Shown: piece by piece, positions 46,768 to 59,481 of the stretch
Position numbering within the stretch: the first letter of the stretch is position 1
Layout of the letters: every line of letters begins with the position of its first letter
From: Pyrofollis japonicus
GTDB taxonomy: Archaea > Thermoproteota > Thermoprotei_A > Sulfolobales > Pyrodictiaceae
Direction: 5' to 3'
DNA length: 64,000 nt
NCBI RefSeq assembly: GCF_033097485.1
Contig: NZ_AP028634.1
Coordinates: 1,541,126 to 1,605,125 of the forward strand
Program-made: the position numbers and the translations under genes
The notes under the pieces: generated by a model
What the model was told of the DNA's origin: nothing
What the model saw: the letters and a program-made list of their open reading frames with translations, nothing else
Database searches by the model: none

Positions 46768-47901
46768 TTGATAAGAGACAGCGATGGGGAAGAGTGGCAG
46801 CAGTACTATATGGAAAGATGCAACGATAATGGCCAAGACAATAGTACTAGTGGAAACAGCTCTGACGACATCGAATACTTATATTATGGGCAGGACTATG
46901 ATGAAGACGAAGATCTAGAAAAACCTATGGATCCTATCTCGGCATTTCTTTGCGAAATCTCGGATACCTCGCCCGAAGGTAGCTTCTGGGCGACTATAGC
47001 ACTAATAGTAGTAAACATATTTACGTTCCTATTCACTTTGCGCAATATCTCCGACCCAGTGTTCATCTATAAGTATTTGCCAACATCGGCCTGTATTCTG
47101 AGCGGCGGATGCGACGCCAAGATACTCTATTCAATGTTCATGCATGCCGGGTTCCTGCACCTTATCGGCAATATGATATATCTCTACATAGTTGGAGACA
47201 ATATCGAAATAGCACTTGGCAGGATAAGGTACCTATTCCTCTATATTTCATCCGGCCTTATCGGCGCCTATACACAGGCATTGATAACCTACAGCATAGA
47301 TTCCTCCAGCTTGTACTTACCAATGCTGGGTGCCTCAGCGGCTATAAGCGGTGTAATCGGCGCATATGTGCTTCTCTACCCCGGCTCGGCCATGTGTAAA
47401 TGTCTCGGCGTCGGATTCGGCTACTACTGTTTCAAAATAAAGGCATCATACTATCTTGCTTCATGGGCTCTCCTGCAACTATTCCTCTCATTACTCACCC
47501 CCTATGTAGCGGTATGGGCCCACCTAGGAGGATTCTTCACAGGGCTCTCACTAGCCTACCTGTTAGCAGACAAGGATAGAGTTAACAACATCAGAAAGAT
47601 GCTTGCAAAGGGCCTCTACAGCGGATTACGGCCAGACACCTATGAGCTACACGTGCATTCTCTTGGAAGGCCGGAAAGACTTGCAATTGTCATTACAGCA
47701 GCTCTCTTCTCCCTATTACTTCTAAACTCCCTAGCACTAGCACTACATAGTCACGGAGGCTACTTCACGATCTACATAAAGAAGGTACGCGTGTGCGAGT
47801 CCATGTTCTTCTGTCATACCGAGACACACGTACTCCATAATATGACGAGTTTTAAGTGGACCCCCTCCTGCAGCTGTCCCCGGCTTCTCCTGCAACTGTG
47901 A
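46768..47901 (+). CDS. Rhomboid-family intramembrane protease, frameshifted near the C-terminus
   Basis: An acidic N-terminal cytoplasmic region (to ~70) is followed by a six-span rhomboid core. HAGFLHLIGNMI carries the conserved His/Asn, GASAAISGVIGAY the catalytic Ser and WAHLGGFFTG the catalytic His. After the core come a further membrane span and a Cys-rich loop. The frame then runs into an unlikely tail (SCSCPRLLLQL) and stops at 47901. The +1-shifted frame continues with plausible protein and a final membrane helix up to 48088. Removing one C from the run at 47861-47865 would join them. The true product is therefore probably ~440 residues, or the gene is decaying. Confidence 0.8.
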   Translation: MIRDSDGEEWQQYYMERCNDNGQDNSTSGNSSDDIEYLYYGQDYDEDEDLEKPMDPISAFLCEISDTSPEGSFWATIALIVVNIFTFLFTLRNISDPVFIYKYLPTSACILSGGCDAKILYSMFMHAGFLHLIGNMIYLYIVGDNIEIALGRIRYLFLYISSGLIGAYTQALITYSIDSSSLYLPMLGASAAISGVIGAYVLLYPGSAMCKCLGVGFGYYCFKIKASYYLASWALLQLFLSLLTPYVAVWAHLGGFFTGLSLAYLLADKDRVNNIRKMLAKGLYSGLRPDTYELHVHSLGRPERLAIVITAALFSLLLLNSLALALHSHGGYFTIYIKKVRVCESMFFCHTETHVLHNMTSFKWTPSCSCPRLLLQL

Positions 47902-48088
47902 AATCGCCTACACGGCAATCTACAACCTAGCTGGCTTGCCGCTAGTCGCGGCTCTGGCGGGAGCTGTGTCTCTATTCTTTGTAGCCGTTACTGCCATAGT
48001 CGTCTTAACGGATAGGTACAAGGAGGTAGAGATAACATATCTAGAAACAAGTGAACATACTTCTCGGAGAAGACACGAGTCCATGTGA
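47866..48088 (+). pseudogene. Out-of-frame C-terminal part of the rhomboid gene
   Basis: This frame, open from 47846, encodes a Cys pair (FSCNCE), a clear membrane helix (LPLVAALAGAVSLFFVAVTA) and a basic tail ending HESM. It has no start of its own and continues the loop of the upstream rhomboid. It ends at TGA 48086-48088, overlapping the glycerate kinase start. It is most simply the missing end of the rhomboid protein. Confidence 0.65.
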
Positions 48089-49425
48089 GGCTGCTTGGCC
48101 TCTTGAACACGGCCCCTTGTACGGTGCCGCAAAGGCTCATAAGGAATACAGATACCCTAGCAGCTACTAGTAGCCGTGCTACTTTGCTAGATGCAGCAGA
48201 AGAAGCTCTTGCCGCAGTTCATCCCTGCAAGTCGTTGCCAGCAGTTGTGCCGCCCCATCTTCTCCGTGTACTCAAGGAGAACAGTGTATACGTAGTTGGT
48301 GTAGGTAAAGCGGCTGGAACGATGACGGCCGCGTTCCTAAGCCTCTCCGGTGTCGCCGTGAATGAGGGCATAATCGTTGTCCCAAGGGGGACAATGATTG
48401 GGCAGCTTAACGGGATCAAGGTCTTGGAATCAGATCATCCCTATCCATCAAGGCGCAGCATAGAGGCTGCAGAAAGCCTGATAGAGTTCGTGTCGAGCCT
48501 GCCCAGGGACTCAGTCCTTGTCTCGCTCGTCTCGGGCGGTGGCAGCGCCCTCTTAGAGAAGCCATGCATCGCGGACATTGAGACCCTAGTCGATATTACG
48601 AGAAGGCTCATGCACAGAGGTGCAAGTATTTATGAGCTCAACACAGTGCGCTCAAGCCTCTCATGCATAAAGGCGGGGGGTCTGCTTTCCTACGCTAAGC
48701 CTAGAAGAGTGATAAACATCTTGATGAGCGACGTAGTAGGCGATAACCCATGCTACATAGCGTCAGGCCCCACAATACCAGGCTGCAAGGTCTCGGCGGA
48801 AGAGGCAATTAGGGTGCTGAGAAGGTATGGGCTTCAACAATACGAGGAACTCGTGAACAAGAGCCTTGTAGCTAGGCTGGCGCCGCCGAAAGAGAAACAA
48901 GTTGACACAATAATTGCTGCAAGGAACCTTGACGCCGTCAGGGCAGCCGCAGCCAGGCTTACAGCCCTCGGCTACAAAGTACGCTTGCTCACCGACAGGC
49001 TTCGCGGAGAGGCAAGAGAGGTAGGCAAAGCCTTAGCAGGCCTCGCCGAGAGCCTCTCACCCGGCTCAACTATGGTGCTTGGAGGAGAAACAACTGTCAC
49101 TGTGCGCGGACGAGGCAGGGGTGGCAGAAACCAGGAACTATGCCTCGCAATGCTAGACGCGACGCTGTCGCTAGGCGAGGAACTAGACTATGCAGCGCTA
49201 TGCATGGGCACAGACGGCGTTGACGGGAACAGCCCAGCGGCAGGCGCCCTCATAGACAGAAGTGTTGCTGAGAAAGCTCGGAGCCTGGGGCTGGACCCAG
49301 CAGTCTTTCTTGAGAATAATGATAGCTACGGGTTCTTCGGCCGCGTGGAAGCTGTTGTTGATACCGGGGGATATACTGGGATAAATGTTAACGACTTGAC
49401 TATTATCATTAAGCCTAGTGGCTAG
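48085..49425 (+). CDS. gckA: Glycerate 2-kinase, MOFRL/DUF4147 family
   Basis: This family makes 2-phosphoglycerate from glycerate and ATP, a feature of archaeal sugar breakdown by the non-phosphorylated Entner-Doudoroff route. Recognisable parts are YVVGVGKAAGTM and LVSGGGSALLEKP in the N-terminal domain and the C-terminal MOFRL region with GRGRGGRNQELCLA and LCMGTDGVDGNSPAAGALID. The 446-residue length fits. GTG 48085 overlaps the rhomboid tail; GTG 48124 (VPQRLIRNTD) is a plausible shorter start. Confidence 0.88.
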   Translation: MRLLGLLNTAPCTVPQRLIRNTDTLAATSSRATLLDAAEEALAAVHPCKSLPAVVPPHLLRVLKENSVYVVGVGKAAGTMTAAFLSLSGVAVNEGIIVVPRGTMIGQLNGIKVLESDHPYPSRRSIEAAESLIEFVSSLPRDSVLVSLVSGGGSALLEKPCIADIETLVDITRRLMHRGASIYELNTVRSSLSCIKAGGLLSYAKPRRVINILMSDVVGDNPCYIASGPTIPGCKVSAEEAIRVLRRYGLQQYEELVNKSLVARLAPPKEKQVDTIIAARNLDAVRAAAARLTALGYKVRLLTDRLRGEAREVGKALAGLAESLSPGSTMVLGGETTVTVRGRGRGGRNQELCLAMLDATLSLGEELDYAALCMGTDGVDGNSPAAGALIDRSVAEKARSLGLDPAVFLENNDSYGFFGRVEAVVDTGGYTGINVNDLTIIIKPSG

Positions 49426-49545
49426 TAGTGTGGCTAGTAGTACATGCTGCATTGTTGTCTCCGCGATGCATACTAAACTACTCCTATGTACACAGACTAT
49501 ATACCGGTAATATATAGAGCGAATAGGTTCTCAGAATATGCAACC

Positions 49546-49556
49546 TTTTTATACAA
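49546..49556 (+). promoter_or_regulatory. TATA box of the first TasA-like gene
   Basis: TTTTTATACAAA lies about 45 bases before ATG 49598, which would place transcription near 49577, and AAGGCG precedes the start. Confidence 0.5.
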
Positions 49557-49597
49557 AACACAAGCCCTACTATACTTGACCAAAAAGGCGAAACAGT

Positions 49598-50149
49598 ATG
49601 AAAGGAATGGTCTTTGGATTAGCCCTAATCGGAGTAATGCTAGCATCAATAATAGGAGCATACTCGATGTGGTCAGAAACGCTAACAGTCAACGGAACAG
49701 TCAACACGGGCGAAGTCAAGGTAGCATTCACGGGCTGGTCTTGCAGCGACACCGGGGCAGACCCCCAGCTACCGAACTCTACATTCCATAACGAGGAAGG
49801 CAAAGACGTAGCTAACTGTGATATAAGTGTAACACAGGTAGATGACGACGGCAATGCAATAGTCTTGCGAGTAACAATAAACAATGCATACCCCGGCTAC
49901 ACGCCGGTGATAGCACTAAACATAACCAACATTGGCACAATCCCAGTAAAACTATACAACTCCTCCGTGAAAGTAGACTCGCCAATAATAGTTGAACTAG
50001 CTACACCTGATAGTACACAGATGCATCCAGATGATACTCACACATACTACCTAACAATAAGCGTGCCCCAGGACGCAGCAGAGAACAGCTCATACAGCTT
50101 CGAGGTGACACTGACCTTCGCTCAGTGGAACGAAGTCTCAACACCCTAA
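49598..50149 (+). CDS. TasA/camelysin-like filament subunit 1 (archaeal bundling pilin type)
   Basis: The N-terminus has a hydrophobic signal ending in IIGAYSMWSETLTVNGTVNTGEV, read here as the SipW-type pattern AYxMWS followed by GTVNTGE. This is the hallmark of TasA/camelysin proteins and of archaeal bundling pilins (AbpA). The mature ~155 residues look like a beta sandwich (VLRVTINNAYPGYTPVIAL and others) with two Cys. An acidic QVDDDGNA loop may bind calcium. Members are cut by a dedicated signal peptidase and polymerise by strand exchange. The gene has its own TATA box and is followed by its paralogue and by such a peptidase. Confidence 0.8.
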   Translation: MKGMVFGLALIGVMLASIIGAYSMWSETLTVNGTVNTGEVKVAFTGWSCSDTGADPQLPNSTFHNEEGKDVANCDISVTQVDDDGNAIVLRVTINNAYPGYTPVIALNITNIGTIPVKLYNSSVKVDSPIIVELATPDSTQMHPDDTHTYYLTISVPQDAAENSSYSFEVTLTFAQWNEVSTP

Positions 50150-50198
50150 CACATGTAATGAATGAGCAATAAAAGGGCTAAATAATCGTAAAAACAAG

Positions 50199-50208
50199 CA
50201 TATAAATA
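50199..50208 (+). promoter_or_regulatory. TATA box of the second TasA-like gene
   Basis: GCATATAAATATTT lies about 55 bases before ATG 50259. GAGGT at 50251-50255 is the ribosome-binding site. A separate promoter for the second subunit is implied. Confidence 0.5.
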
Positions 50209-50258
50209 TTTTTAATAAATACTCGTATTAAGCGTGATTTGCGTAATTTTATGAGGTA

Positions 50259-50963
50259 ATGAATATGTATAAGAACAAGACGATAGCTCTAACAGCTTCA
50301 ACTATAGCAGTACTAGCAATATCAGTGCTCGCAGCCTACGCAATGTGGAGCCAACAAGTCAGCGTAACGGGCACTATAAACACCGGAGAACTTGACTGGG
50401 AATTTGTTGGCGGATCACTTGCATATATGGATGCATGCGGATTAGTTCCTGGATATGGAAATTATGCTGGAAACGATTGGAACGCATCCTACTATCCAGA
50501 ACCCGGCTCTATACAACTAGATAAGGATGCTGGATGCACCAATGTAACACTGTTAGACACTGACGGCGACGGAGATTATGATGCACTAAATATAACGCTT
50601 CACAATGTATATCCGTGGTACTACACACATATAGCGTTCAAGGCGCACAACAATGACGACATCCCGCTCAAAATATGGCGAGTAACAATAGAGGGGCCAT
50701 ACAGTAGCGAAACATACTATGAGCTAAATGAGCAAGAGCTACAGCAAGGCGTTGAACTAGATCTTACTGGTGATAATCAGCCAGACATTACTGTATGGTG
50801 GGGCGACAACTTTGGCACGCAACTACATTATTGCCAGTCAGCAGACATAAGTCTCGATATCACAGTTCTCCAGACAGCTCCGCAAGGCAGTACGCTTTCA
50901 TTCATAGTGAAGCTTGACGCGATAGCCTGGAACGAATACACAAATACCTCTATAAGTGGATAA
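50259..50963 (+). CDS. TasA/camelysin-like filament subunit 2, with calcium-loop-like motifs
   Basis: This is a 234-residue paralogue of the preceding protein. The signal region ends SVLAAYAMWSQQVSVTGTI and NTGELDWEF, the same SipW-type pattern. The mature part is larger, with a Tyr/Gly/Asn-rich loop (near residues 55-85). DTDGDGDYDAL (near 100) is an EF-hand-like loop and DLTGDNQPDI (near 168) a second acidic loop, so calcium binding is likely. The beta pattern matches subunit 1 (ALNITLHNVYPWYYTHIAF). Its separate promoter suggests a different amount or timing. It may be the second filament type or a cap/adhesin. Confidence 0.8.
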   Translation: MNMYKNKTIALTASTIAVLAISVLAAYAMWSQQVSVTGTINTGELDWEFVGGSLAYMDACGLVPGYGNYAGNDWNASYYPEPGSIQLDKDAGCTNVTLLDTDGDGDYDALNITLHNVYPWYYTHIAFKAHNNDDIPLKIWRVTIEGPYSSETYYELNEQELQQGVELDLTGDNQPDITVWWGDNFGTQLHYCQSADISLDITVLQTAPQGSTLSFIVKLDAIAWNEYTNTSISG

Positions 50964-50979
50964 TAATGATATAAAATTA

Positions 50980-50994
50980 TTTAATTATTTTTTC
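50980..50994 (+). terminator. T-tract after the second TasA-like gene
   Basis: TTAATTATTTTTTC follows the stop by about 20 bases and would end the subunit messages before the peptidase gene. Confidence 0.45.
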
Positions 50995-51066
50995 AAAATT
51001 AATACAGTTTTTATAGTGGGAAAGAGACGCTAATTTACATTGTTATAGGTATTGGTGTCATAGCAG

Positions 51067-52263
51067 TTGTTTAGCGATAAAATGGCTACATTACTAGCGA
51101 TATTATATGTAGTAATAGTTGTCATCTTGTTTATGAGGACTAACATAGCTGTTACGCGTACAACTTCACTCCTCATAGGAGTACTGCTCTATTTAAGCAT
51201 GCTAGGCTCAACCTACTGGAAGCGGACAAGCGGTTTCAAGGACGAGGCAGAAATAGCGCTAATCTCTTCACTTGTATCATTGATAGGTATCTATTCTGCT
51301 CTATCACTTATCTATGGCTTTGCAATAAACGCTCTTTCCCCAACCCTGTTTGACTCCCTGGTCAACCTTGTATACAGACTTCCACAGCTCCTTGCCACCT
51401 CGTCACTGATCTCTATGCTTGCCCTAGGCAAGAACTCAGTGCCAACCCGCCGTTTTCAACCCGTATTGGTGCTTGGCGCGTTTTTCGCATTACTATTAGA
51501 CTCCCTGGATTATGCCTCGCTGACTCTACTCGTAAGGGGAGCCATGAGCCCAATTGTCTTCACTTCCAAGATAATACTCGCTACAGGTGTGATCGCATCT
51601 ACATACTTGTTAGCCCGCTACGGAACAATACTGTATGGTACAGTATTTGTTCTCTCAGTAATGTTGCCATACTATGTGAGCCCCCTGCTTCCAAATGTAC
51701 CTACAATATTCCTTATATTTATGGGCCTCGTACCCTCACTAGTAGCGTCAATGACCCTTCTTAACCGAATAGAGATTCCACGCCACGAGGCCAAAGGATT
51801 AACAGTTGACGCCAAGAGTGTTGTCGCGGCAACATTTGTTGCTCTTAGCCTGCTCATAGTTCTTTCAAAGGGCTATTGGCCCCTCATTATATTGAGTGGA
51901 AGCATGAAGCCAAGCATAGATGTTGGAGACATAGTAGTAGTTAAACCAGTAAGCAGGATCAATATAGGCAGTATAGTCGCCTATAAGGCTAGCAATAGAA
52001 TCGTAGTACACCGAGTAATAAATATTAGTATTGATAAGTTAATAACTAAGGGTGATGCAAATAATGCCCCTGATCCGCCCATTAGTCGTAGCCAGGTCCT
52101 AGGAGTAGTTAATGTAAAGATTCCTTTGATAGGCAAGCCACTGATTGTTTTGGCAAGGCTCCTTGGAGGGAATATTTTCTCTGCTCAGCTCTTCTTAGTG
52201 CTAATGATAATTGTCGCTATAATGGCGTCCCCCCTAGTAAGGATGAGGAAGAAGTTGACATAG
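51067..52263 (+). CDS. Polytopic SipW/Sec11-like signal peptidase
   Basis: The catalytic part is archaeal/ER-type S26B: the Ser is in ILSGSMKPSID (about S279), the His in VVHRVI (about H315) and the Asp in TKGDANNAPD. The usual Lys is replaced by His. Unlike compact SipW or archaeal SPases, a ~265-residue N-terminal region with about nine membrane spans precedes the catalytic domain. One more span follows it. Position right after two SipW-type substrates strongly suggests a dedicated processing enzyme. The start may be TTG 51067 or ATG 51082. Confidence 0.85.
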   Translation: MFSDKMATLLAILYVVIVVILFMRTNIAVTRTTSLLIGVLLYLSMLGSTYWKRTSGFKDEAEIALISSLVSLIGIYSALSLIYGFAINALSPTLFDSLVNLVYRLPQLLATSSLISMLALGKNSVPTRRFQPVLVLGAFFALLLDSLDYASLTLLVRGAMSPIVFTSKIILATGVIASTYLLARYGTILYGTVFVLSVMLPYYVSPLLPNVPTIFLIFMGLVPSLVASMTLLNRIEIPRHEAKGLTVDAKSVVAATFVALSLLIVLSKGYWPLIILSGSMKPSIDVGDIVVVKPVSRINIGSIVAYKASNRIVVHRVINISIDKLITKGDANNAPDPPISRSQVLGVVNVKIPLIGKPLIVLARLLGGNIFSAQLFLVLMIIVAIMASPLVRMRKKLT

Positions 52264-52397
52264 ACAAGGCGCAGAGTACACGGTATATAGCGCAGTGTTT
52301 AAGAGCAAGAAATATATACCAATTTTCACTAATACCAGATTGTGCATAACCTAGTTTACGTCTTTCTTGATCATTACATATTCATTGATTATACGGT

Positions 52398-53432
52398 ATG
52401 TGTTTAGCTATGAGTAATACTAGCCGTGGAGTCGGTGGCTCAAAGGGCCACTGGCTCAAGATATCTTTTATCCTAATTCTGTTTGGTGTTACACTATCAT
52501 CTTTTGCAGCTGTTGGATTAATCTTTGGCCATAAAGCGAAGCCCGATACCGATACAAATACAACAAAGACGGTGGCGCTAAGGGCAGATGCGAGCCTCGA
52601 AGCATTTATGAAAAAGAGCTTGATCTATCCAAACGGCTCAACTATTATAAGAAATACTGGTGTAATTGCGTCTAAGCTACTGAGAAACAATACGCTTGTG
52701 GCAAGTTTCAAAGTAAGTGCTATTACAAGCGATGTTCCTCTGAATAGTTTCAACTACGTTATTGTCGAGAAACTCCTAGTAGGCCCCTTCGCAATAAAGC
52801 TCAAAGAGGTTAAGGGAAAAACCCTGGTTGGCAAAGAGGCTGTAATGTTGATTAATCTCTCGAAGGCTAGGAGTGTCGCAATGCGAGTTATAAATGAGAC
52901 GGGCCTTAGCATTGCTACAGACGTCTTCCTAGTAACAGAAATGAATGCGGTTCTCCCTGTAGGTGGAAGAGTTGCTAAGCTTAGCCCCTCAATAAGTATG
53001 AGCCTAGGCTACAATAAAGAGCTATACAGCGTGCACGTAACCAGCAAGAATTCAACAACAACATTTTCGGAGAACCTGCCCACGCCGGTCGGGAATAGGA
53101 AAGAATCACTTGTTCCACGAGGCCTGCTCATACCATTACTAGCAATCGGTATAGCCATGTCACTTGCAGGAGGCGTAATGTATTCAAGGCTAAGCGAGCC
53201 TAGCATAGAAGAAATACTAAAAGCAACTAGTGCCCCAGTTATAGAGGCCCATGGGCTTAGGGAGAAAAGCCATATAGAAGTAGCCAATCCGCGCGACATT
53301 ATTCTTCTCGCCGAAAGGACTGCCAACCCTCTTCTACGAGACAGGGGTGGGGAACTACTCTGTACTCTTCTCAATAATAACTTAGTGTGTGCAGCTTATG
53401 GCAGAGAGCCAGTTAAGCAGGGTGAGAGCTAA
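52398..53432 (+). CDS. DUF5305-like membrane protein of the filament locus
   Basis: The topology is an N-terminal membrane helix (near residues 22-45), an extracellular ~190-residue domain (LIYPNGSTIIRNTGVIASKL and later IATDVFLVTEMNA), a second helix near 240-265 and a ~75-residue cytoplasmic tail. This is the layout and size of DUF5305 proteins, which I recall as frequent SipW neighbours in archaea. It probably assists filament export or anchoring. ATG 52398 or 52410 may be the start; no clear SD is seen. Confidence 0.7.
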   Translation: MCLAMSNTSRGVGGSKGHWLKISFILILFGVTLSSFAAVGLIFGHKAKPDTDTNTTKTVALRADASLEAFMKKSLIYPNGSTIIRNTGVIASKLLRNNTLVASFKVSAITSDVPLNSFNYVIVEKLLVGPFAIKLKEVKGKTLVGKEAVMLINLSKARSVAMRVINETGLSIATDVFLVTEMNAVLPVGGRVAKLSPSISMSLGYNKELYSVHVTSKNSTTTFSENLPTPVGNRKESLVPRGLLIPLLAIGIAMSLAGGVMYSRLSEPSIEEILKATSAPVIEAHGLREKSHIEVANPRDIILLAERTANPLLRDRGGELLCTLLNNNLVCAAYGREPVKQGES

Positions 53433-53598
53433 GGGGGTAGTTGAGCGCTCTTCGGTGACTTCATATAAGCTTTGTGCATCTCTAGTATACAATTCTTAAA
53501 TAGTGCATGTTTCGCAGTATTACCTGGTTTACAAGTACGTAGCTTACATATAACGTAGCACACGTATATGATTGAATAAGGTGTAGGATTGATACCTT

Positions 53599-54288
53599 AT
53601 GCAAACTAAGCGTGCAAAGCGCCGAGACGCGCTACTCATAGTTGGGGACATATTGTCAATTCTGAGCCATAAAGGCCCTCTTCGTAAGACCAGGCTTATG
53701 AATCTTGCAAATCTTAATCCACAGAGCCTTGAGAAGCACCTATCCACGTTGCTGGAGAAAAGACTCGTAACTAATGTTGCAAAGAATTCTGTACACCCAC
53801 CGCTCTATACTATCACCCGGAAAGGCCTAATGTACCTAAGCATTATACGCCTTCTCCACAAAGAACTGAACACGCCGAGTGAGCAAAATTGTCCATGGTG
53901 CAGAAACATTCGTTCCGCAGTAACGGGGGTACTAGAATCTATCAATAGTGGTACAAAGGTCTATGAATCACTAAGCGGAAAATCAGGAACAATGTATATA
54001 CACGATGCAGTCTTTTTAACCAAATCAGGAAAGGAAATAGCGATAGACTTGCTCCTCGACTCAAATAATACGCTGTCGCTGCTCTATGATCTAGGCTACA
54101 TACTGCTAAGCTGTGTAGACACAAATACGGGGCACATAATAATTACCAGGGAATCACAGCACCACATATGCGAAGTGCTTCTATCCAATCCCGGATTAAC
54201 ATGCAAACCCTTAGTCCTTTATGTCAACGAAGCAACAACTAAAGAGTCATTAGCATACAAGATCCAAGATCTATTGTCAAAACAATAG
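53599..54288 (+). CDS. Winged-helix regulator beside the filament locus
   Basis: A winged-helix domain covers about residues 8-80: DILSILSHKGPLRKTRLMNLANLNPQSLEKHL (with the PQSLEKHLSTLLEKRLV recognition part) and the wing YTITRKGLMYL. A Cys-x2-Cys (CPWC) follows near 98. The C-terminal ~130 residues are a separate alpha/beta domain of unknown type, perhaps a sensor. It is probably transcribed with or near the filament genes and could regulate them. ATG 53599 is used. Confidence 0.72.
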   Translation: MQTKRAKRRDALLIVGDILSILSHKGPLRKTRLMNLANLNPQSLEKHLSTLLEKRLVTNVAKNSVHPPLYTITRKGLMYLSIIRLLHKELNTPSEQNCPWCRNIRSAVTGVLESINSGTKVYESLSGKSGTMYIHDAVFLTKSGKEIAIDLLLDSNNTLSLLYDLGYILLSCVDTNTGHIIITRESQHHICEVLLSNPGLTCKPLVLYVNEATTKESLAYKIQDLLSKQ

Positions 54289-54471
54289 AATAGTGATGCA
54301 GACAACTTACCCATACTTCATCGTCAAGGTCTTTAAGATTAAGAGCCCGTATAACGACATCTCAAGTAATAAATTTTAGTGCATACAGATAGCTCAAAGA
54401 CTCTTTTGTCTTCGCCTCAACTCATTTAATTTACTTTTTAAAGCTAATTCCATAGCAGGGTAGAGAGGTTC

Positions 54472-55683
54472 TTGGACGATAGCTCCAAGGCCTTTCTACT
54501 GACTACCGTGTTTCTCTACAGCGCGTCCGCCGCTATAGCCAATATTGCTGCGGGGCTCTACGCTCTCGATATTAGTGGCAAGACTGTTTCGCTAACCCTA
54601 GCAGTTGCAGCATATAACGCCGCGTTCGCGTTCTCGAGTCTTGTCGTCGTGCCTTGGCTCGAGAGCAGGCGAAGCGGTCTCTTTCTCTCAGTTGCGCTCG
54701 TCACTGTATCCATCTCTCTGGCCCTCATGTACTTGTCTAGGAGCCTACTAGAAATAGTGCTGCTTAATGCCGTGTATGGTGCCGCAGCGGCACTGGTCCA
54801 GCCAATAGTCCTCGCAGCAGCATCGGCGCTGGAGGAGGGAAGCGAAGCCGTCCCAGAGATCAATATCGCGTCAAGCATCGGCATAATCACGGGCGACACG
54901 GTTGCCGCAGTCCTTGCAAAGGCTCTCGGCGTACAAGGACTCCTCGCATTATCGGCTCTCATAGCGCTCTTATCGGCTGCGACATCGCTGAAACTCTCAT
55001 GGGTAGTCGGGGGGTCAAAGCCCCCGCTAGCTCCGAGTACGCCGCTCGTGACAGGCAGGGCGCGCTACTCTCCACCGACACATGTACCCCGTAACAGAGG
55101 CGCTGATGCGGGAGCAACCCAGATTCCTTGGCGCTTTCTCGCAGGGGTACTCCTCCTCTTCACAGCCATATCAGTATTCTTCTCCCCAATGCCGGCTTAT
55201 CTAAGAGACCTCGGGTTCAGTGACTCCGAGATCTATGTATTATCAATGCTCTCTCTCGCAACCTCGACGTTGGTATATGAAGTACTCCGCAGATCAAAGC
55301 TGGCGTTAGAAAAGGCGCATCTCCTCTTGGTCTCGGCAGCCGCATTAAGGACAATAATCTTCGCAACACCGATACCCGTGTTCAGCAGAGTACTAGACCC
55401 AGGTATAACCATGCCAATGCTCTACGTGTTCGTCGGCGCAACATGGGCCCTAATCTCAACGTCACTCCCACTTATAGCTCTAACTCTGGAAGGCGAAGCC
55501 GGCGTAGGGAAAACCAACGCGTTTATGAGCATAGGCTTAGTAGTCGGGAGCACTGCTGCAAGCATCCTAGTACACTACGGTGGAGCAGATGCAACATGTA
55601 TCACAGCATCCGTCCTCGCACTTGTGTCAGCACTCATACTCAGCAAGGCAAAACCAACAAGCACATCACCAGCACAGCTGTGA
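54472..55683 (+). CDS. Major facilitator superfamily transporter
   Basis: The 403-residue protein has two blocks of about six membrane spans separated by a hydrophilic ~40-residue loop (residues ~185-220). The short WLESRRSGLF loop between early spans is MFS-like. It likely moves small solutes by proton or other ion coupling; the substrate is unknown. The start is a TTG at 54472 with GAGAGG upstream. The codon use is GC-rich, unlike the AT-rich filament genes before it. It is monocistronic. Confidence 0.75.
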   Translation: MDDSSKAFLLTTVFLYSASAAIANIAAGLYALDISGKTVSLTLAVAAYNAAFAFSSLVVVPWLESRRSGLFLSVALVTVSISLALMYLSRSLLEIVLLNAVYGAAAALVQPIVLAAASALEEGSEAVPEINIASSIGIITGDTVAAVLAKALGVQGLLALSALIALLSAATSLKLSWVVGGSKPPLAPSTPLVTGRARYSPPTHVPRNRGADAGATQIPWRFLAGVLLLFTAISVFFSPMPAYLRDLGFSDSEIYVLSMLSLATSTLVYEVLRRSKLALEKAHLLLVSAAALRTIIFATPIPVFSRVLDPGITMPMLYVFVGATWALISTSLPLIALTLEGEAGVGKTNAFMSIGLVVGSTAASILVHYGGADATCITASVLALVSALILSKAKPTSTSPAQL

Positions 55684-56005
55684 TGCAGGAAGCACTTCTC
55701 CCGCGAACCCCGGCTCATCCCGCCTAGCAGCGGTCACCGGGGCATATACTCATTCACCGCCGGCCGCTCGCACACCAAGCACCTAAAGCCCTGCTCGCTC
55801 ATCGCGGCCAGTATTCCACAGAGCCGCCCTGTATCCTTATCCGGTCTCTCCTTGCCTGCTCCCAGTAAATAGTTATATTACTTCTCGGCAAGGGTTATAA
55901 GGATTAGATAGATACTTTGATAAACAATTTAACAAGCGTTTATGGCAATAATGGTAAACGAAACAGATAGTGCACAGCATGTCGGAGAGGAGCCGGGAGA
56001 AGGAT
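55684..56005. other. Intergenic region with a possible micro-gene on the minus strand
   Basis: About 320 bases, GC-rich first then AT-rich. On the minus strand 55734-55802 encodes a possible 22-residue peptide (MSEQGFRCLVCERPAVNEYM) with one Cys-x2-Cys pair, and a TATA-like AGTAATATAAC lies near 55875. This may be a small zinc-ribbon protein or part of an RNA; support is weak. No repeat is seen. Confidence 0.3.
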
Positions 56006-56237: not shown

Positions 56238-56711
56238 ATGCCGAGAACACATTGCTATAGGCTTCGAGGAATCAGCGAGTACGTGTCGGCCGCGCTCCTA
56301 GCAATAATAGTCCTGGGCGTCGGCGGCCTAGTAGTGTCAAGGATAATCGAGACCACGTACACGGCGCAACAACAAGCAGAGCAGCAATCAGTCAGAGCAA
56401 AGGTAGAGGCCATGCAGGACCTAACAATAGCACTCGCATACATTAATCAGAGCGACGTGCTCCACGTAGTAGTGGTTACAGACAACACGCCAGTACTCCT
56501 CTACGACGTCTACGTGAACAATACACTCTGGAGCGACAACTGTACAGCGAGGCTCAACAATGGCTCAGAGTATCATCCGGTGCATAATGTCCGGCTCCCA
56601 TACTACGCAGCAGCCGACATAGAATGCACACTGCCAGCCGGGACAAGCCTCGCAGAAGTAAAACTCGTCTACCAAGGAGGCGAGGCATATGCATCCGCGA
56701 AGAAGCCCTAG
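56238..56711 (+). CDS. Type IV pilin-like protein (class III signal)
   Basis: The N-terminus YRLRG-ISEYVSAALLAIIV is a class III signal: basic residues, a Gly, then a cleavable hydrophobic helix, cut by the archaeal prepilin peptidase PibD. The Gln-rich helix continues to about residue 75 and then turns into a small beta domain with two cysteines that may form a disulfide. It likely forms or caps a type IV-like surface filament. The ATG at 56238 is used. It overlaps the next gene by 23 bases, so the two are translationally coupled. Confidence 0.75.
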   Translation: MPRTHCYRLRGISEYVSAALLAIIVLGVGGLVVSRIIETTYTAQQQAEQQSVRAKVEAMQDLTIALAYINQSDVLHVVVVTDNTPVLLYDVYVNNTLWSDNCTARLNNGSEYHPVHNVRLPYYAAADIECTLPAGTSLAEVKLVYQGGEAYASAKKP

Positions 56712-59481
56712 AGCAATAGCAACCATAATAGGCGGAGTACTCCTAGCCATAGCCCTACTCGCCCTCCTAGCCCTCTACTTCTACCTACAACACCAACAGC
56801 AAGAACTACAGCAAACACTATCCGAGGCAGCAGAGGAGAGAATAAACACACAGCTCCTCGCATCAACAATAAACGGCTACTATACTTATGATGGAGCGGA
56901 GCTTTATATAGAAATAACTTCGAGTGCACCTAGGGCCGTCAATATAATCAATATAAACGTCCTATGGAATAATTACACATCGCTGGTTATAGATCGTTTC
57001 ACAAATCTTCAAGCTAAAGGCATTGAGATGAGAATTCAGTCATTCAATGGAGCAACGACGCTAGTTGCTTCAGTGCCCGTGGCTTTGGCTCCAGGAGACA
57101 CTTTAGAAATAATTATCCCTGCTACAGCTAAACCATTATCAATAACAGCAACTATTTCTGCAAGCCCAGCCGTAGCAGTAATATCAATAAAGAAGAAGCC
57201 TGCATTCCCAGCTAACGTGACCTATCCAAATGTAACGTGTCCCCTAGTAAGTACAATACTGTTAAGTGAACCACTAAGTGGATACGTTGTTGCCGAAAAG
57301 GCTGCTACTACTCAGCTTCTAGGAAATTATACTCAAGTCCCGGATAGCTATCAAGTACTAAGAGGAGGCCAAGTCACTGGTTCACTCAATAACTTGGCAA
57401 GCGTAGATGGTTTAACTCTTAATATAAGGAGCATATATGCGCCTTTATGTCCAGGACTTAGTGGCTGGAACTATATGAGAAAAATAACTATAAGTAATCC
57501 AAACAGTTATAGCTATGACGATATCCAGATTAGAATCGAACTCAATTCTACAAATTTCGAGTTTAGCCATGCGAAAAACGATGGAAGCGATATACGAATA
57601 CTTGCATCAGATTGCACTCCCCTATACTACTGGATAGAGAAATGGGACCCTCAAAACGGTCACGCTGTAATATGGGTAAAAATACCTCATATAGATGCTA
57701 ATTCTAATCAGACAGTATTTCTCGTTTACGGTAATCCATCAGCACAACCAGACACCGAGCACGAAGGCCTCACAAAAGTCATGACGGAGCTCCCTGCAAA
57801 CGATGGTCCAGGGTACACAATCTACTACCAGGAATGGATAATGCCGGTAAATGGTCTTGTGGGTGATGGAAATTCAATGAATTGGCACGCCGATGATGGG
57901 TCGTGGCTACTGTCTTTGCCCTTTAAGTTTCCTTACTATGATAGATATATCAATCAAGTTTATGTTGATAGTAATGGTTTTGTATCAAATCATACAATTC
58001 AGTTTGATTGGATATATAGCGAAAATAATCTAAAACAAAACTTAATAATTGCCCCTCTCTGGGCAGACTTAACAACACAAAGTCCACATGATATATACGT
58101 TCTGAATAATTATGAAGATAACTACGGAAATGGTACGGTCATAAGATGGAATGCCGGAGTATACGTACGCATATCCAGGGTAAAGATACTGGTAGGAGAA
58201 GCTAACTTTGAGTTAATATTGTATGACAATGGTTTAATACGATTTAATTATGGAGATGTAACAACGCTTCTCCCTTCTGTCTTCCTCGTCAATCCTGTCG
58301 TAGGCTTATCTTTGGGCGATGGCAGGCATTATACCATAGCTTCATATAACCGGATGGATCTTAATAGTTTAGATCATGCAAACTCTTTGATGTTCTGGCC
58401 TCGTAAAAAACCTCAGCAAGAACTTCAGGCGTATGTCGGTACCGAAGAATCTTTCAACAAGTATATAATTGATATTAAATTCTCAAAGGATTTAGGCTAT
58501 GCTTTCCTTAGAAATATAGCGCTTGTGGCTGCATCTCCTAGCGGTGTAAGCTATCACTATGAAATAAAGATCAGCATATCTAATATAAATCTCTATATAG
58601 AAAGAGCTGCGGCCTCGGACCCAGTCATAAAAACGATAGAGTTTAATAAATTAGTAAATGGCTTGTTAGAAATCGAAATAGTTGTGTTCTCAGATAATAA
58701 TATCTCTTTTTCTCTTGATAAACTAACTATCTCTTACTCACCTGCGACTTTAACGGAAAAAGGCATATATATAGCATCGAACAGCACAGCCGATTATATT
58801 TTGAAGCTCGATACATTGACTAATGCTACAGCAAAAATAACTCTTCCATCACAGCTCCAGGGCCAAGGATATATAGCGATTTCACCCTACATGGGATCTT
58901 CACCTATTTTGTGGGTTGCAAGAGGTAAAAATGCAGCTGAGTACATAATTGCCAATAATACATGGCAAAGAATAATAGCACTATCAACTCCGCTGGGTCC
59001 AGGAGGCTTTATCGCGTTTAACGGAACACATCTATACTACTGCCCCGGTGATGGCTACAACTACATAGATATATACGACGTTACTACGAATAGTCTTGTG
59101 TCTCGAGTAGCATTACCTAGCAATATTACTCGTTGGTCGAGTGTAGCGTATGTAGGATCAATACTATATATCCATACAGGCGAAACCAACCGGCTGATTG
59201 CTATAGATCTAGCAACCGGCTCCGTAACGGATCTAGGACAGACTCCTCTTCTCTATAGCGTAGGCATGGACTATGGATCGTCAAGCATGAAACTCTATGT
59301 TGCTATCCGCGGCGGCGGCATTATGACCTATGACACGGTCTCTAAACAGTGGGGTTCGCTTAATTACGCTTTACCTTTTTATCCATTCTCTCCCGGTGAC
59401 AGGCTCGCTATAATTAATGATAAGATTTATTTCGTGAGAGGAGATGGAACTGCTCAAGTGATTGTAATAGATATTTCATAA
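56689..59481 (+). CDS. Large pilin-like adhesin with DUF2341 and beta-propeller-like domains
   Basis: The 930-residue protein begins with a class III signal (RRSPRAIATIIGGVLLAIAL) and a Gln-rich helix as in its coupled neighbour. A beta domain follows. A DUF2341 domain spans about 265-355 (WNYMRKITISNPNS, AVIWVKIPHIDANSNQTVFL, VYGNPSA). A nidogen-like beta region follows (~380-570), then a domain of Kelch/propeller-like repeats (to 930). This looks like an adhesin displayed on a pilus tip. The first ~190 bases are GC-rich like the upstream gene, and the rest is AT-rich, suggesting a swapped body. Confidence 0.78.
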   Translation: MHPRRSPRAIATIIGGVLLAIALLALLALYFYLQHQQQELQQTLSEAAEERINTQLLASTINGYYTYDGAELYIEITSSAPRAVNIININVLWNNYTSLVIDRFTNLQAKGIEMRIQSFNGATTLVASVPVALAPGDTLEIIIPATAKPLSITATISASPAVAVISIKKKPAFPANVTYPNVTCPLVSTILLSEPLSGYVVAEKAATTQLLGNYTQVPDSYQVLRGGQVTGSLNNLASVDGLTLNIRSIYAPLCPGLSGWNYMRKITISNPNSYSYDDIQIRIELNSTNFEFSHAKNDGSDIRILASDCTPLYYWIEKWDPQNGHAVIWVKIPHIDANSNQTVFLVYGNPSAQPDTEHEGLTKVMTELPANDGPGYTIYYQEWIMPVNGLVGDGNSMNWHADDGSWLLSLPFKFPYYDRYINQVYVDSNGFVSNHTIQFDWIYSENNLKQNLIIAPLWADLTTQSPHDIYVLNNYEDNYGNGTVIRWNAGVYVRISRVKILVGEANFELILYDNGLIRFNYGDVTTLLPSVFLVNPVVGLSLGDGRHYTIASYNRMDLNSLDHANSLMFWPRKKPQQELQAYVGTEESFNKYIIDIKFSKDLGYAFLRNIALVAASPSGVSYHYEIKISISNINLYIERAAASDPVIKTIEFNKLVNGLLEIEIVVFSDNNISFSLDKLTISYSPATLTEKGIYIASNSTADYILKLDTLTNATAKITLPSQLQGQGYIAISPYMGSSPILWVARGKNAAEYIIANNTWQRIIALSTPLGPGGFIAFNGTHLYYCPGDGYNYIDIYDVTTNSLVSRVALPSNITRWSSVAYVGSILYIHTGETNRLIAIDLATGSVTDLGQTPLLYSVGMDYGSSSMKLYVAIRGGGIMTYDTVSKQWGSLNYALPFYPFSPGDRLAIINDKIYFVRGDGTAQVIVIDIS

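Follow-up and report, generated by a model that had tools for sequence, protein, structure and literature searches.

In Pyrodictium abyssi, AbpX has been described as a donor-strand fibre resembling the archaeal bundling pili (ABP) (PMC11952670), and AbpA of Pyrobaculum calidifontis (PDB 7UEG) makes a TasA-like donor-strand fibre in another hyperthermophilic archaeon (PMC9674648; PMC9715654). Heteropolymers of TasA and CalY are reported for Bacillus cereus, where SipW and CapP, a chaperone-like protein, are further components (PMC13082335). For the archaeal threads (Saci_0406), which are donor-strand fibres of related archaea with a predicted maturation by signal peptidase I, the neighbourhood of the subunit gene showed no obvious assembly machinery (PMC9715654), and the wider question is how donor-strand fibres can polymerise in archaea without chaperone-usher machinery. 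We describe a five-gene cassette of Pyrofollis japonicus, located in a stretch of 64,000 nucleotides (contig NZ_AP028634.1, positions 1,541,126 to 1,605,125; hereafter the window), for which the reading as a surface filament of the AbpX/TasA type, with two kinds of SipW-type subunits (A and B), a dedicated peptidase and a DUF5305 partner, has in our estimate a probability of roughly 0.77.

The original prediction had described, on one strand, two paralogous proteins with a SipW-type signal, a signal peptidase, a DUF5305-like protein and a winged-helix protein. This content was confirmed by open reading frame calls and family matches, with all five frames of the cassette on the + strand at 49598-54288, where they had been placed. 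The features, in window coordinates, are:

49548..49553, + strand: TATA-box-like TTTATA upstream of subunit A, exact match at -50
49598..50149, + strand: subunit A, 183 residues, SipW-type signal peptide, predicted mature protein of 160 residues
50259..50963, + strand: subunit B, 234 residues, paralogue of A with two Asp-rich calcium-type loops
50556..50582, + strand: B loop 1, DTDGDGDYD, residues 100-108, DxDxDG calcium-type motif
50760..50786, + strand: B loop 2, DLTGDNQPD, residues 168-176, Asp-rich
51010..51015, + strand: TATA-box-like TTTATA upstream of the signal peptidase gene, exact match at -57
51067..52263, + strand: long-form signal peptidase I, 398 residues, TTG start, Ser279 and His315
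52398..53432, + strand: DUF5305-family membrane protein, 344 residues
53599..54288, + strand: winged-helix (HTH_45) protein, putative regulator

The view that both secreted proteins are related to filament subunits is borne out by their homology to AbpX, a solved archaeal bundling-pilus subunit (PDB 9sj2, 9rhp). In searches of the PDB, the single sequence of A matched AbpX with an E-value of 1.3e-6 and that of B matched it weakly (0.025). Two profiles built without AbpX likewise found it, namely the A6 profile of A with E 1e-12 over 140 positions and the A3 profile of B with E 2.3e-8, the latter match being split into two shorter stretches; the broader A alignment contains AbpX, so that its own match to this protein is not independent. 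By hhalign, the two subunits are paralogues of each other (100%, 189 columns); their mature forms are equally acidic (pI 4.05 for both), and the motif MWSxTL...TG, following a signal of the SipW type, is kept throughout the A/B family. The family TIGR04088 was among the best NCBIfam matches of both proteins, yet the scores of 13-14 bits fell short of its cut-off of 19.

The gene of AbpX was found in locus L105, where its product is identical to chain 9sj2 in 163 of 163 residues. This chain begins with Gln-Trp right after the ...TYA signal, one residue before the equivalent Trp, and since it starts at the equivalent residue, the mature N-termini are by analogy predicted to be Met24-Trp25 in A and Met29-Trp30 in B. 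AbpX thereby shares with the cassette proteins both the homology of the mature protein and the mature start WSETL...TG, and its gene is followed by one for the same long-form peptidase (full-length profile E 2e-85). It differs in that it does not contain the DxDGDGDxD loop of B and in that its locus holds a single subunit.

A linkage of the homologues to a peptidase had been expected beforehand, and the neighbourhood search is in full agreement with it. Where a locus of the order had 4.5 kb or more of downstream contig (n=26; neighbours counted within 5 kb), a peptidase gene was found on the same strand near the subunit gene in 26/26 cases, B in 22 and DUF5305 in 21, and most of the 43 loci of a second, named collection keep the same gene order. 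The peptidase of the window matches TIGR02228 (E 6.8e-21; 74.8 bits vs a cut-off of 51.85), and its Ser279 and His315 fall into invariant alignment columns, as for an enzyme of the Ser/His type. By hydropathy it has about 8 hydrophobic segments, a multi-transmembrane (multi-TM) arrangement unlike SipW; with the model for SipW proper (NF046067) it scored below the curated cut-off (39.8 vs 190 bits), and length and topology differ as well.

For the DUF5305 protein, hydropathy indicates a TM segment at residues 24-42, an ectodomain at about 46-238, a second TM segment at 243-261 and a tail that is presumed to be cytoplasmic. In the DUF5305 alignment, 21/25 members match Pfam PF17231 (best 3.7e-20). 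DUF5305 and A/B-type genes occur together in 25 genomes vs 4.8 expected (397 genomes; phylogeny uncorrected), and beyond the order the peptidase is likewise encoded at most DUF5305 loci whose contig is long enough, and SipW-type proteins at many of them. The best reading is that DUF5305 represents a membrane partner of the peptidase or an assembly factor. The family was unnamed in the literature that was searched; the primary AbpA and AbpX/cannulae papers lay outside that search, so priority is uncertain. In three loci of distant Thermoproteota (L193, L196, L202) a match to the M73/TasA family adjoins a signal peptidase and DUF5305.

With TasA/CalY of Bacillus (camelysin, Pfam M73), the cassette has in common the SipW-type precursors and a linked peptidase of the Ser/His type (PMC10151520; PMC13082335) as well as, in B. 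cereus, two paralogous subunits (PMC13082335). It differs in that TapA and CapP are secreted, whereas DUF5305 has two TM segments, and in the large multi-TM N-terminal region of the archaeal peptidase. The M73 model (PF12389) found no match in the genome of the window, for which reason a direct membership of A and B in the TasA family was rejected, and 3/31 members of the A set matched it (best E 0.0018). Aligned by hhalign to six archaeal M73 proteins, the A set reached 95% over 110 columns and B 95% over just 29 columns around the cleavage site; this profile-profile comparison (95% probability) suggests that A and B are distantly homologous to the TasA family. To AbpA, neither a significant sequence match of A or B nor a fold match of the B model was obtained, and the archaeal threads, which likewise gave no sequence match, differ by a mature N-terminus with an isopeptide Asp and a YYY motif.

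The two subunits are clearly set apart by their loops. The DxDxDG loop occurs in 34/35 B sequences vs 1.5 in shuffles and in 0/31 sequences of the A set, and a looser pattern for the second loop, D.[DNTY].[DN]...D, in 35/35 B sequences vs 2.6 in shuffles and in 1/31 of the A set, the shuffle controls for the loop motifs giving about 0.4 to 2.6. The loops of B are motifs of the calcium type, and they may bind calcium. In L078, L081, L088 and L095, subunit genes encoding 418-502 residues lie at or adjoin the position of B, which suggests extended or multidomain subunits. The locus had initially been called self-contained, which is overstated in view of a third SipW-type paralogue elsewhere in the genome, ~195 kb from the cassette (L112:8893-9468, - strand, or about G000:C1:1394892-1395467). 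Several relatives encode proteins like this third paralogue within the cassette or next to it; these proteins, several of which have a Cys/His-containing insert, could be tip or cap subunits.

Modelled on the precedent of TasA/CalY/CapP in Bacillus cereus (PMC13082335) and of TapA in B. subtilis (PMC10151520), the following order of events can be imagined. The precursors of A and B would be exported, with Sec as the presumed route, and the dedicated Ser/His signal peptidase encoded next to them would cut both just before the conserved x-Trp. The N-terminal strand freed in this way, MWSETL... or MWSQQV..., could enter the groove of the next subunit, i.e. donor-strand exchange. The shaft would consist mainly of A, and B, possibly stabilised by calcium, would copolymerise with A or cap the filament. 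The DUF5305 protein, as a membrane-anchored partner of the peptidase, could act as a base, nucleator or quality-control factor, in a role like that of TapA/CapP in Bacillus, and the winged-helix protein would probably govern expression. One could further speculate, tentatively and with considerable doubt, that SipW-type filaments of archaea (the TasA/ABP class) are assembled at a membrane platform formed by DUF5305, which would be coupled to the long peptidase in such a way that cleavage and donor-strand hand-over take place at one membrane site and nucleate a heteropolymer of A and B that is stabilised by calcium. In that case the module of four genes would amount to an analogue of the chaperone-usher system that is widespread in archaea and needs no outer membrane.

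From our point of view, the strongest of the competing explanations is that A and B polymerise independently into two homopolymers, such as a structural fibre and one that depends on calcium, or that B is a tip or base cap only, in which case the two would have the peptidase in common and would not copolymerise in the shaft. This is possible, if on balance doubtful: A and B may have their own promoters, AbpX functions with no B encoded at its locus, B systematically differs from A in size and by its calcium-type loops, and some relatives have three or more paralogues. However, nearly every complete locus has the genes for A and B side by side, and the distance matrices of the two subunits correlate with r 0.82, to which shared ancestry contributes. 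Moreover, the nearest studied case with two subunits, TasA/CalY, has been reported as a heteropolymer (PMC13082335).

Several points weigh against the proposed AbpX/TasA-type filament and its set of components. No filament has been observed in Pyrofollis japonicus. Structure models were made for B (AlphaFold; pLDDT, the predicted local distance difference test, of 86; mostly beta) and for the DUF5305 ectodomain (pLDDT 88), and Foldseek found no significant PDB match for either of them, i.e. none better than E 1e-3 and with low template modelling scores (TM-scores). For B, TasA and AbpA were absent from the top 50; the Foldseek library may predate AbpX. Since both models are confident and yet matched nothing in the PDB at that level, we make no claim about the fold. 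The window copy of DUF5305 taken alone is below Pfam detection, and in 12/39 DUF5305-positive genomes no A/B-type or M73 gene was found above the thresholds, although two of these 12 (G292, G355) have weaker A/B-profile matches beside DUF5305 (L188, L186). In addition, both the co-occurrence count and the distance correlations ignore shared ancestry. Finally, the AbpX locus has one subunit and is without B, DUF5305 or winged helix, and searches with the DUF5305 protein of the window and with the Pfam model found no DUF5305 in that P. abyssi genome. Since the P. abyssi locus has neither, B and DUF5305 are not universally required for filaments of this class, and DUF5305, being undetected in that genome too, is not an obligate assembly factor. 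Of the suggestion that the pairing with DUF5305 and the regulator is a candidate undescribed assembly module, what stands is a conserved, phylum-wide pairing with DUF5305, a family unnamed in the literature searched; an obligate role does not.

A further alternative is that A and B are secreted monomeric or S-layer-associated proteins that form no filament at all: proteins with a SipW-type signal need not all be fibre subunits, and the Foldseek search with B found no fibre. We nevertheless consider this unlikely, given the significant profile homology to a filament subunit across most of the mature protein and the conservation of the N-terminal strand motif of AbpX. Furthermore, the first 18 residues of the B model are in no strand, as expected for a free donor strand.

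It is still less probable that the peptidase serves general secretion and that DUF5305 and the winged-helix protein are unrelated neighbours, even though some loci are without the latter two. The same genome encodes a second, short signal peptidase (G000:C1:373528-373968), distinct from the long form, and because of this separate enzyme the long peptidase is probably dedicated to the cassette rather than a housekeeping one, and a role of the long form in general secretion is disfavoured. The linkage in 26/26 loci, which persists outside the order, argues in the same direction, as do the distance matrices of peptidase and DUF5305 (r 0.95 over 22 loci, with a contribution of shared ancestry). 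Least probable of all, and in our view hardly to be expected, are calcium-dependent tubes like the cannulae of Pyrodictium abyssi: the host belongs to the same, cannula-forming family, the calcium-type loops of B are conserved and CanA requires divalent ions, together with its N-terminus, to assemble (PMC12326000), but cannulae are hollow tubes rather than bundling fibres, the sequences are related to the bundling fibre AbpX, the cassette occurs widely beyond the cannula-forming family, and the link to CanA drawn at the outset found no counterpart, with no CanA chain among the PDB sequence matches of A and B up to E 10 (assuming that CanA entries are in the PDB copy used).

With regard to transcription, it had been proposed that each subunit gene has its own TATA box. 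This is supported for A, where TTTATA matches exactly at -50 (45-bp stretches drawn at random from the window contain such a match in 0.9% of cases) and where the TATA-like stretch can be aligned between the window, L073 and L075. For B, a match of 5/6 positions with a background of 21% leaves such a box only plausible. The exact TTTATA at -57 of the peptidase gene had not been remarked upon previously. The winged-helix protein matches HTH_45 above the cut-off (E 1.4e-11), and a relative is encoded within 5 kb in 17/26 loci; its position suggests that it probably controls the expression of the cassette. The more general claim, that the block encodes extracellular filaments, their processing and their control, is partly supported, in its first two parts by the homology to AbpX and by the peptidase linkage; the third, the control, is suggested by gene position.

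The host genome is a single contig of 2.005 Mb, its same-genus relatives being metagenome-assembled genomes of Pyrodictiaceae, and the GC content of the window is 48.1%. The flanks of the cassette are ordinary, with a rhomboid protease and a MOFRL (glycerate-kinase-like) protein upstream and a major facilitator superfamily transporter downstream. The rhomboid protease (46768-47901), two genes upstream of A, has an acidic N-terminal extension. About 2 kb downstream of the cassette (56238-59481, + strand), two open reading frames have hydrophobic, possibly type-IV-pilin-like N-termini, one encoding 157 residues without a Pfam match and the other 930 residues with DUF2341. No Rfam match to an RNA element was found in window positions 48000-56000, and a viral origin of the cassette was considered and set aside, the search made having turned up no relative in viral contigs.

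Overall, the cassette appears as a variant of the known AbpX/TasA-class filaments, with a calcium-loop second subunit, a probably dedicated long signal peptidase and a conserved DUF5305 partner. The module of peptidase and DUF5305, which is found beside AbpX-like subunits and elsewhere near matches to the TasA family, names candidates for the processing and assembly of such fibres. That one subunit (A) is plain and the other (B) systematically has calcium-type loops suggests that archaea, in parallel to the TasA/CalY filaments of Bacillus cereus, may form heteropolymers, and the uniform locus provides a handle for finding filaments of this kind in uncultured lineages.

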